Positions 12,765 through 34,395 of a DNA stretch of 64,000 nt are shown here, piece after piece. The DNA is from Dysidea avara (taxonomy: Eukaryota > Porifera > Demospongiae > Dictyoceratida > Dysideidae), in the NCBI RefSeq assembly GCF_963678975.1, contig NC_089276.1, positions 29,938,472 to 30,002,471 on the forward strand, given 5' to 3'. Below the pieces are notes generated by a model that saw nothing but the letters and a program-made list of their open reading frames with translations, did no database searches and was not told where the DNA came from. Position numbers and translations under genes: made by a program. Every line of letters begins with the position of its first letter. The first letter of the stretch is position 1.

Positions 12765-12941
12765 CTATGTCTTAGATATCTTTTTGAGATAAGCAGAAAT
12801 TTGCATCACAATGTTTGTGAATGTCGGCCTCTGTTTTGGCAGATAATTCCAGCACTGACACATGACTTCATTGTACAATATTTTAGGAGTATCCTCTGAT
12901 GCCTTCATCCTGTAACCTTGCTGTATGTGATCAGTGACTTC
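12765..12941 (-). CDS. gene A last exon: kinase C-lobe end
   Basis: 58 codons plus stop, beginning [12 protein letters not shown] and including [14 protein letters not shown], the conserved C-lobe helix with the RP pair typical of tyrosine kinases. The acceptor is GATGTAG|GAAGTC. Phase 0 fits the previous exon, which ends GMSNN. The protein ends a few residues after the kinase fold, with no tail. Gene B has the same exon at 42125-42301 with five residue changes. Confidence 0.9.
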   Translation of the reverse strand, partial: EVTDHIQQGYRMKASEDTPKILYNEVMCQCWNYLPKQRPTFTNIVMQISAYLKKISKT

Positions 12942-15900
12942 CTACATCAAATAAAAAGACATTTAAAAATAATTATGTTACCACTTGAGTGGCGTGTGAA
13001 TTTTCTTTGTCCCACAATACACTACAGTGTGTATATACTGGTATATCAATAAAGGTAGGAGTAACTGTTACTGTACTTTCTAATACAATATTTTCATAAT
13101 AACTGTCATATTTATCTTAACATCATCAGCAGCAGTGGCTTCAACTACATTAACAGATTTTTTAGAAGTAAACTTATACAATTATTTAATTTATTCATTC
13201 GTGCTTTACAATTAAACAGTAAATAACCTCCATACATTGTTGCTCATTCCAAAGTAAGGTATTTTTCCACAAGTGTAGATCTCATAAAGCAACACTCCAT
13301 AACTCCACACATCACTAGCAGTAGTGCAAATTCCTAGGCTGAGAGTCTATATATTAATGAAAACTTATTACTGTATTTACACATTGGCAACAATTGTGAT
13401 TGAATTTGACAAAACAAGGCTTCCACTAACATCCAATTTTCTGACTTTAAAACCAACTGTAACTTGACTACTCAGTAAGCTATTGACCTAAAAGTATTCC
13501 CACAATTCTTCCATAACATTGTACAGTACCAGGTCAAAGTTAAACTAATGGCATACTCATACAATGAGTTATGGTGCTTCAAAATCATAAAAGTGGATGT
13601 GTGTGGAAGCCTTGTTTTGTCAAATTTAGTCACAATTATGCTTGCAAAATTAATTAGATACTTCAATAATTCACTACAACACATTATATAATCAGATCAA
13701 TTTTTTCGTTAATGTAGGTGGCTAGTAATGTATGTGCACATATGAAAATAGTGTCACCACTGAAGCCTATAAAGTTCATACATGGAGTAGACATGAACAT
13801 GTGTAACAAACAAATGAGAGAGATTAAACAAACACTCTTTTTCACTGAGTAGTATGTCAACAGTTGAAGTGGATATCGTATAGAGGGAAAGTTTGGTGAG
13901 GAAAAACTTTGGCAAATTTGGCGATTTGCTACAAATTTGCCAAAGTTTAATCCGCCAATTGCTTGTAGTGCCTCAAATCTTTAAAGCTAAACATTGAGCT
14001 TGAATATATATATTAATTTGCCAAAGTTTATTTCGCCAAATGCAATTTAGCTTGTTGTGTTCCCCAAAGTTTAGGTCTCCCTCTATACGGTATAAACCAG
14101 GAATCTCCACATCTAAATGCCCAAACCCTGACCATTGATTTATTTCTACAAGTTATCCATGGTTATTCTGCCTTTATACTACAGTATCATTTAGAATCTT
14201 CATTTATAAATGAAGGTTCTAAATAATACTGCAGTTAGACATTGAATCATCAGGTTCTACAGAATTTAGTAACCCAAAGGTCCTGTGTACGTGTGCCAAG
14301 CAAAGGTGTCTGAAGGTTTCTATATGCTGTGGTTTTTACAGCTAGATAAATACTGTAAAGTGAAGTGGATGGCGGTGGCAAGTGTGTCTGGCTGTCTTCA
14401 AGAATGCTGGGGTATATCTATTACACTAGACCCATGTACAATATTGTGAAAGGACAGTCTTCTCACATGCCTATATTCGGACCAATCTAATCCAGCTTGT
14501 GTGCATTTAGCATGAGCATATAATTTGTTTCGGAGTCTCACTTTTTGCTTTCTTGTTACTTAATTGCTGTGTTTTGTATCACCTCACAGACAGGAATATG
14601 TTGAGACAAAAACTACATGATTTGGATACTTGTAAGTAGCCAATGAAATTTAAGTATTTTATCTTGGTGTGGTCTAATTTAAAGCTAGACTACAAATAAA
14701 AGAAATGGAAGTTCCACAGAAAACAATGCTGCTGAAAATGTTAGAGAAAATGAGTGTTGTTTATTAATGCTTTACAGCACAAGTGCTGAAGGTCTGTAGG
14801 ATACCTGGTCCTACAGCCTGCTCAAAGACTTTAGCTACTTATATTAGAGTTCAAAATCACATTTCTGTGAGAGTGATACAGATTCAATAGCAAATCATAT
14901 AATGATATAGCAATAATATTCATTCATACATAGTTACTGTTATCCTGTTATCACTGCTGCAAGGCTTGCAAATGCATATGAAAATGATAATCATGCTAAA
15001 ATAGCCAAAGCCCAAAGAACTAAAAGGGTGCAGCCTTCAAAATGCAAGGTTGTAAAGCTGTGATGATGCATGAACATTGCTAATCACCCTCAGTGATGAC
15101 ATGGCAATGCTATCATTATTAAACTTCACAACATCACAGTCATTTGTTGGCCACTGCCTGTAATCTCACAATTTCTATAACACTGAATGTTTGGAAGAAC
15201 GTAACTTTTTACAGTAGGACTGATTGCAATAAGCACAATACATCAAACAGTGACATTTCTGTACATCACATTGGTACATTATATTGGCTGACTGACAGCT
15301 CATGTAATTTGCTGAATATTATCAAAGTATTAAATTATAAGTCATACCTCAGGAGCTGTCCACCTTACAAGAGTGCCATGAATTTCATCATTTTCAATAT
15401 ACAATCCCTTTTCTGTTTGTTTACACATGCTGAAGTCTGAAATTTTCAACACTTGATTGTTGTTCCCAACCAGACAACTCCTAGCAGCCAAGTTTCGATG
15501 AAGACAATTTTGAGAAGCTAGGTACTCCATCCCCAAGGCAGCATCAAGGGAGAACTTGGTTAACTGGTACTGTGTTTGATGTATGCTGTGTGTACATAAG
15601 AAAGTTAGAAATCCTCCACCAGACATCATTTCCAGTACCATGTACATTGGTTCTGCATCCGTGCATGTAAAAAGGATCTTGACTATGTTGGGATGACTTA
15701 ATCGCTGCAGAAGTTTAGCTTCAGAAAGGAACCGTTGTCTGTCTGAAGCATACACAAAATCTCCTGTCTTCATTAAGGCTCGCTTTCCAGTGGTTTTCAT
15801 GGTAGCAGAATATATGATATTGAAAGTTTCTTGGCTACAAGGTACATCATCAACAATAAGATTGTCTTGATTTATCAAGTGTTTGTGATGATCTGTAGGT

Positions 15901-33011: not shown

Positions 33012-33453
33012 CTAAAATATGTAAAGTGAGATCATGTTTACAAATTGCAACCCACAATACATTCTCATGTGAAGGATTTATTATTCAACTATTTCAAAAC
33101 ATGTAGGTACGTATAAAATACCCATACTGAATTTAGAAGTCTTTCATGCACAGCCAGTCAAGGGGATTTCAAAGTTGAACTCTTGTACATTTGTCACAAC
33201 ATCCATAAGTAATCAAATGTACCTGGGAGTATTCTACCTGTAAACTTGAGTATATATGACACAAACAGTGAAGCTATATATGCAAAACATACAGTGTAAT
33301 CTAACTTGTACGTGTCATATATAGCTTTCTTGTTTTTATTGCTGTAATTCCAATTAAGTAGCTAAATGAAAGGCTTGTTCGGATACATGCAGTATGGTTG
33401 ATTGTTATATGTGTGACTGTGGTTACTGTTGTATGCAGTATAATTATACTGAC

Positions 33454-34395
33454 CTGATTCCAAATTTCAATTTGCTTGCATGTATCTTTCATTGTTGGAC
33501 GTTCAGCTGGATCGTTATTCAACAGTGACTTTACAAGAGGCTTCAATGCTTTACTTTCTCCAGTAAACTTGTCTAAATAATTTATTCGACGTTCAACTTC
33601 TGTAAATACTACAAGTGTTTTAGCTTTGTGATCCATCTTTGCTAGTTCGGATGGAGTGGGCCATTCATGAGTAACCACAAAAAGCATAATTCCACCATAA
33701 GAGAAAACATCCATTGAAGTACCATAAACTGGATTTTTTGTCATAGCTTCTGGAGGCATGAAATCCGCTGTCCCAGGCATTTTGTTTAGTTTACTATGTG
33801 TAGTCTTTTTGTCAAATTGTATCACCTTAGCCACACCCAGATCTGCAATTTTAGCAACCAGAATGTCATTTCCTTCTGTACATTTTGAAACAAACTTTAA
33901 TAGGATATTATTTGGTGAGAGATCACGATGGATTATTGGGGGCTTTTGAGAGTGAAGGTAGCACAATCCTCTTCCAACATCAAGTAGTACAGTAGCTTTT
34001 ATCATCAGGTGTACTTGTGAGGGAGGCTTCTTAAGGTAGCTAGTTAAACTAGTATCCATCATTTCCATAACCATCACTGGAATATCCGACTGGCCTCGCG
34101 GGTAAAATACTCCTAAAAACCTGACGATTTTGGGATAACTTAGAGAACTGCATCGTTTGCACTCTTCAATAAAGCTATTCACTATGCACGCCTTCTCTTG
34201 AGGAGTTATTCCTTGAAGAAAAATTTGGTGAATCTCTTTGGCAGCACATGGAATACCGCCGTATTTTACGTTGTAAACCACACCATAAGCACCGCGACCT
34301 AGTTCTGTTTTACCTCCCTCACCGTCACCAACATACTCAATCCCAGCGGTAATAGTTAGATCATTCAGATTGCCGTTAGACTTACTATCTGCCAT
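33454..34395 (-). CDS. TKL-type kinase domain exon, probable 5' exon of gene A
   Basis: 314 codons from ATG (MADSKSNGN). Motifs: glycine loop GRGAYG at 33-38, Lys53 (AAKE), HRDLSPNN with D158, DLG (D185), GTADFMPPEA, DVFSYGG at 229, and TEVERRINYLDKF. The domain is complete and its catalytic residues are intact apart from the DLG variant, which is common in TKL kinases. It is about half identical to the kinase at 9142-10062, including the end signature. The donor CAG|GTCAGT at 33454/33453 is phase 0; reading through gives 55 non-kinase residues. Position, strand and phase suit splicing to the linker exons and then SH2-1, but it could also be a separate short gene. Confidence 0.85.

Follow-up and report, generated by a model that had tools for sequence, protein, structure and literature searches.

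Genes and exons in the window

We analysed a 64,000-nucleotide stretch of the Dysidea avara genome (contig NC_089276.1 of assembly GCF_963678975.1; hereafter the window, whose positions serve as coordinates throughout) that had been predicted to encode one fused chain made of a TKL kinase, two SH2 domains and a tyrosine pseudokinase. We rebuilt the exons, scanned the translated frames with Pfam, compared parts of the products with solved proteins and used the duplicates present within the window as a comparative control. All the genes discussed lie on the minus strand. It appears likely that the region holds two independent genes placed head to tail: TKL1, coding for a small kinase, and gene A, coding for a VAV-type SH2 domain, a linker, a FES-type SH2 domain and a FES-type pseudokinase, with its 3′ part duplicated. 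The apparent giant fused signalling protein would thus most likely be two separate neighbouring genes; that exons follow one another on a strand is no proof that they encode a fused protein, nor evidence of one. The original prediction mentioned neither the tandem copy (42–53.5 kb) nor the TKL1 paralogue (9–10 kb).

Gene A consists of nine exons, from 31910 to 12765, that join into one open frame of 526 codons (526 amino acids) counted from the ATG at 31906. All eight acceptor/donor pairs between these exons are AG/GT, and an AG also precedes exon 1. This exon structure can be read directly from the genomic sequence:

Gene A exon 1: 31863..31910, minus strand, in-frame ATG at 31906 and start of the VAV-type SH2 domain (unseen upstream exons possible)
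Gene A exon 2: 31404..31520, minus strand, core of the SH2 domain, including the Arg that binds phosphotyrosine (LVRE)
Gene A exon 3: 31247..31337, minus strand, SH2
Gene A exon 4: 30773..30850, minus strand, end of the VAV-type SH2 domain
Gene A exon 5: 28794..28901, minus strand, linker, present in copy B too
Gene A exon 6: 19634..19816, minus strand, first part of the FES-type SH2 domain (YLVRY; Pfam SH2 2.5e-11)
Gene A exon 7: 15348..16019, minus strand, SH2 end and most of the pseudokinase (FES E=3.3e-36)
Gene A exon 8: 13236..13346, minus strand, kinase C-lobe
Gene A exon 9: 12765..12941, minus strand, end of the kinase domain, TAG at 12767–12765

Pieces of a BEL/Pao-type retrotransposon (DUF1759, DUF1758, RVT_1 and Peptidase_A17; 22943–26854, minus strand) lie in the intron that separates exons 5 and 6.

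TKL1 comprises the exon 34395–33454 and the exon 32500–32393, so that the gene runs from 34395 to ~32390 and codes for 350 amino acids:

TKL1 exon 1: 33454..34395, minus strand, complete protein kinase domain, ATG at 34395
TKL1 terminal coding exon: 32390..32500, minus strand, 36 Lys-rich codons (32500–32393), in phase 0 with exon 1, TGA at 32392–32390

The first of these exons had been described as a complete TKL-type kinase exon. Its kinase nature held (Pfam Pkinase 3.8e-38 for the open reading frame (ORF) 33301–34425 around it), and a GT donor after CAG closes the exon in phase 0 at 33454 (splice score 5.8). The comparisons lend the TKL label only moderate support, as the best solved matches were mixed (EGFR chain, WNK, TNNI3K, MEK1, CTR1, Roco4, RIPK1 and JAK2, among the best 60 of 1209). 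A paralogue occurs further downstream:

TKL2, paralogue of TKL1: 9163..10062, minus strand, 48.9% identity to TKL1 (2.4e-92), Pfam 3.1e-39

The two kinases are ~50% identical (48.9% in the similarity search, 51% in the alignment) and share the layout of a kinase contained in one exon. Both keep Lys53, Glu78, HRD, Asn163 and DLG in an alignment read by eye, and TKL1 accordingly looks like an active kinase. TKL1 and TKL2 are diverged paralogues, and the window holds at least these two. The TKL2 exon might extend to a donor-like GT after 9142 (donor score 10.1). Downstream of TKL2, Pfam detected no SH2 or kinase domain in the three minus frames of 1–9.1 kb, where the only match was a sub-threshold one to RecD_N. 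A search for the TKL pair in a collection of genome contigs without animal genomes confirmed 4 of 156 stretches, all from bacterial metagenome-assembled genome records with 24–27% identity, and none of 53 candidate stretches was confirmed in viral contigs.

The end of TKL1 was located through the gap between the kinase exon and the first SH2 exon (33453–31911), for which the original prediction had proposed two phase-0 linker exons. Among the 383 stop-free windows of 25 codons examined there, 19 exceeded the intronic 99th percentile of 0.252, with one clear coding peak at 32500–32426 (0.540; intronic maximum 0.313). The first proposed linker thus has a clear coding signal, and the second, at 32250–32176, was marginal (0.253 against the 99th percentile of 0.252); both frames run into a stop, TGA and TAG, respectively. 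We took 32500–32390 as the TKL1 terminal exon because it continues exon 1 in phase 0 to a TGA and contains the clear coding peak. Its codon score (0.373) also exceeded the 99th percentile of 500 stop-free intronic stretches (0.219), with negative values in the other two frames. This in-frame TGA is separated from the first SH2 exon by ~480 bp. The marginal, coding-like stretch between TKL1 and gene A (32250–32152, minus strand), whose frame is ended by a TAG right after 32155, is possibly an alternative TKL1 end. We did not use polyadenylation signals as evidence, since AATAAA occurred twice between 33460 and 31500 against 2.3 expected.

Domains of gene A and its tandem copy

In the spliced gene A, Pfam recognised a kinase domain (1.1e-69) and two stretches of SH2 (family value 2.8e-31); the gene most likely combines two SH2 domains and a FES-like tyrosine pseudokinase in one gene. 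In this respect the original prediction agreed well with our reconstruction: the four-exon SH2 domain at 31910–30773 was recognised by Pfam when spliced (3e-15), the linker exon 28901–28794 is part of the open frame and has AG/GT borders, and the second SH2 domain (19816–19634 into 16019–15348), together with the FES-like kinase domain down to the TAG at 12767–12765, was recovered by the FES matches and the open frame.

When the first SH2 domain and the linker were compared with 196 solved sequences, of which the best 60 were considered, the seven best were VAV2 and VAV1 (57.9–63.8 bits; top E=1.7e-16, VAV2), followed by PLC-gamma1 (47.7 bits, 1.6e-11). This domain can be called VAV-type by best match, not by tree. 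The arginine of the LVR motif is kept in both SH2 domains of gene A. In the first, an isoleucine stands where VAV2 has an arginine, according to an alignment read by eye; we take this site to be that of the helix A arginine. The codon score of exons 1–4 (0.156) equalled the maximum of 500 intronic controls, with −0.509 and −0.585 in the other two frames.

Residues 146–521 of gene A matched human FES with E=6e-76 and 259 bits, compared with 182.5 bits for the next non-FES chain and 158 for SYK (best 60 of 820 matches). Relative to FES, the kinase domain has kept the beta3 lysine (ALMK) and the alphaC glutamate and has lost the glycine loop, with HRD changed to HRN, AARN to AARS and DFG to DFS. 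The original prediction of a tyrosine pseudokinase is well founded in these motifs, as HRN, the serine in place of the metal-binding asparagine and DFS occur in both gene A and its tandem copy (HRN, TTRS and DFS in the latter). On the motifs only, we predict that the gene A product lacks phosphotransfer activity. A structure prediction of exon 7 from two sequences had a mean predicted local distance difference test score (pLDDT) of 37 and was not used. A search for the pseudokinase exon confirmed 0 of 17 candidate stretches in the genome contigs (a collection without animal genomes) and 0 of 2 in the viral contigs.

The tandem copy, copy B, corresponds to exons 5–9 and extends from 53464 to 42125. 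Its exon borders, exon lengths and stop match those of gene A, and it contains no internal stop:

Copy B exon 5 (linker): 53357..53464, minus strand, 26/36 residues identical to gene A
Copy B exon 6 (FES-type SH2): 51531..51713, minus strand, 54/61 identical
Copy B exon 7 (pseudokinase): 46004..46675, minus strand, 201/224 identical (90%)
Copy B exon 8: 43715..43825, minus strand, 37/37 identical
Copy B exon 9: 42125..42301, minus strand, 52/58 identical, TAG stop as in gene A

The ratio of nonsynonymous to synonymous substitution rates (dN/dS) between the two copies was 0.38 over 416 codons (bootstrap range 0.23–0.59), and third codon positions accounted for 40 of the 86 differences; at the sequence level, exons 5–9 are therefore under constraint rather than in free decay. 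Since the same dead motifs occur in both copies, the catalytic losses are most simply viewed as older than the A/B duplication. Gene conversion, for which there are signs near exon 8, could alternatively have spread them between the copies. Around this exon, the DNA at 13111–13701 and 43590–44177 is 97% identical, compared with 77–89% in the flanks, which suggests a recent conversion event between gene A and copy B.

A third FES-type C-lobe fragment lies at 41306–40734 (minus strand). It is more diverged (59% identity to exon 8 and 45% to exon 9) and is probably a relic. We considered its pieces at 41306 and 40892 as alternative 3′ exons for copy B and rejected them by hand reading, as they misfit the phase of exon 7 and a stop occurs just before the second piece.

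Alternatives to two separate genes

Several observations weigh against the two-gene arrangement, which is read from genomic sequence. Exons 1–4 have no second copy in the window, and the VAV-type SH2 domain is joined to the linker on the basis of phase, order and strand. Between exons 5 and 6 lies a 9-kb intron with BEL/Pao pieces in it, so that the gene might be broken, and gene A may also have further exons upstream. Selection appears uneven, with dN/dS values of 0.54 in the linker exon, 0.41 in exon 7 and 0.20 in exon 6. The TKL1 terminal exon has a weak acceptor (0.8, against a minimum of 5.3 for the 13 model acceptors, or down to −1.4 by leave-one-out). Finally, a GT after 32454, inside that terminal exon, scores 2.9, leaves two bases over and is in frame with 31910.

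The first alternative is that exons 1–4 are a separate VAV-type relic and that the FES-type gene starts at or near exon 5, so that no tandem-SH2 protein would exist. Copy B lends it some support as it shows exons 5–9 only: its collinearity with the introns of gene A ends at 54128 (30651 in gene A), ~120 bp short of exon 4, and we did not find VAV-type SH2 exons for it up to 64 kb. Pfam recognised no SH2 domain at 54.1–54.8 kb (one minus frame and one plus-strand ORF) or at 60.7–64 kb (six frames), and the best tblastn match of exons 1–4 outside gene A had an E value of 0.15 and was the other SH2 domain. However, the phases of exons 4 and 5 match, and copy B is broken precisely in this region. 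Past 54128 it continues into unrelated sequence and, from 54788, into a BEL/Pao element, so that its exons 1–4 might lie beyond the window. The VAV-type SH2 exons of copy B have presumably been either displaced beyond the window or lost, and we regard the relic explanation as unlikely. The element itself (54788–60685, plus strand), assigned to the BEL/Pao-like type by its resemblance to the one in gene A, has a single 1847-codon ORF and 183-bp terminal repeats that are 99.5% identical; it inserted recently, close to the 5′ part of copy B.

A second alternative, which we find quite improbable, is that gene A or both copies are decaying pseudogenes, with motifs lost by decay and introns swollen by transposons. 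The missing catalytic motifs, the BEL/Pao insertions and the apparently broken third C-lobe fragment would fit this idea, whereas the 526 codons without a stop in gene A, the absence of stops from exons 5–9 of copy B and the dN/dS of 0.38, with an upper bound of only 0.59, speak against it.

The third alternative is the fusion proposed by the original prediction, in which the TKL kinase, both SH2 domains and the tyrosine pseudokinase would form a single chain through stop-skipping splicing or an unseen exon. The two genes do share strand and order and lie only ~0.5–1.5 kb apart. Gene A exon 1 opens at the third base of a codon and consequently requires two left-over bases from any upstream exon, whereas neither the donor at 33454 nor that at 32411 leaves any, and both are out of phase with it. 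The phase mismatch that had been noticed between 32411 and 31910 is thus real, and the donor at 32411 scores lower (−1.0) than any of the 12 donors in the SH2 gene models, whose minimum is 4.1, or −0.1 by leave-one-out. These scores come from a small splice matrix (12 donors and 13 acceptors) built from the gene models themselves, whose leave-one-out minima (−0.1 and −1.4) limit its power against bridging exons. In addition, in-frame ATGs occur at 31945, 31927 and 31906, all of them after an in-frame TGA at 31960–31958, so that the SH2 gene is able to start by itself. A fused protein is therefore unsupported as the main product of the locus, because TKL1 has its own terminal stop exon, the junctions are incompatible in phase, gene A has its own ATGs and TKL2 has no SH2 domain downstream.

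Direct splicing of the TKL1 kinase exon to gene A was rejected, with no phase-compatible site at any of three pairs of donor and acceptor thresholds. No bridging exons were found at the strict pair (4.1/5.2), at which some bridge appeared in 8 of 40 shuffles. Lowering the thresholds to 2/3 gave 3 one-exon and 23 two-exon bridges, and lowering them to 0/0 gave 41 and 465; we treat these loose-threshold bridges as chance matches. The donor after 32454, which belongs to one of the 0/0 bridges, deserves more consideration, as it would link a shortened TKL1 exon 2 in frame to 31910 and skip the TKL1 stop; real donors, scored by leave-one-out, cover a range (−0.1 to 10.7) that includes its score. 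However, the stop exon looks coding, and splicing at this site would split the window with its strongest coding signal (32500–32426). As a minor product, a stop-skipping fused splice form is unlikely, and the single chain in general seems to us highly improbable. Very little credence can likewise be given to the specific case of a splice form, made through the weak donor at 32454 or an unseen exon near 32.1–31.95 kb, in which phosphotyrosine docking and a dead kinase would control an active kinase within one chain.

Comparison with known proteins and possible role of gene A

With TKL1 and gene A taken as separate genes, gene A can be compared with several known systems. Human FES can be aligned with its SH2-kinase unit from one end to the other; gene A differs from FES by the loss of the catalytic motifs (with K and E kept) and by the additional VAV-type SH2 domain in front. 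FES and FER carry an N-terminal F-BAR domain; Pfam gave no F-BAR/FCH match on the minus strand of 12.4–22.3 and 28–54 kb (stops read as X), with far upstream exons possible. As in Syk and ZAP-70, two SH2 domains precede a tyrosine-kinase fold, but in gene A the kinase is FES-type (259 bits against 158 for SYK), the first SH2 domain is VAV-type and the motifs are lost. The likeness to VAV lies in this first SH2 domain, by best match, whereas the exchange-factor core is absent from the stretches scanned: Pfam detected none of the VAV CH, DH, PH, C1 and SH3 domains on the minus strand of 12.4–22.3 and 28–54 kb. JAKs consist of an SH2-like domain, a pseudokinase and a kinase, and in gene A an SH2 domain likewise adjoins a pseudokinase, although its chain shows no second, active kinase. 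Gene A is therefore neither a complete FES/FER, nor a Syk, nor a VAV, and the description that suits it best is that of a pseudokinase derived from FES to which a VAV-type SH2 domain has been added. A literature search did not find this combination of VAV-type SH2, FES-type SH2 and pseudokinase among the papers listed, which is weak evidence of absence as most subscription papers were not covered. We consider a VAV-type SH2 domain joined to a dead FES-type kinase unusual rather than revolutionary.

From its domain content, the gene A product is probably a phosphotyrosine adaptor. Its two SH2 domains might allow bivalent docking on doubly tyrosine-phosphorylated partners. In FES, according to a published account (PMC2791838), the SH2 domain packs on helix C of the kinase domain and ligand binding is an early activation step. 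The FES-type SH2 domain of gene A might pack in the same way on the dead kinase domain and, if the contact with helix C has been kept, ligand binding could shift the conformation of the latter, exposing or hiding a scaffold surface. The product would then work as a phosphotyrosine-gated scaffold. Alternatively, it might compete for the ligands of active FES- or VAV-type proteins. In either role, gene A would represent a pseudokinase of FES origin that has become a two-SH2 adaptor, its 3′ part constrained after tandem duplication, and would show that an SH2-kinase unit can be retained for binding alone. The neighbouring TKL kinases may be unrelated to it in function.

The window also contains large minisatellite-like arrays of related units downstream of TKL2 (5397–7400), upstream of TKL1 (35900–38050) and inside gene A (~21000–22100), as well as a reverse transcriptase fragment at 61427–61936 on the plus strand (RVT_1 1.2e-16), which we read as similar to long interspersed nuclear elements (LINE-like).

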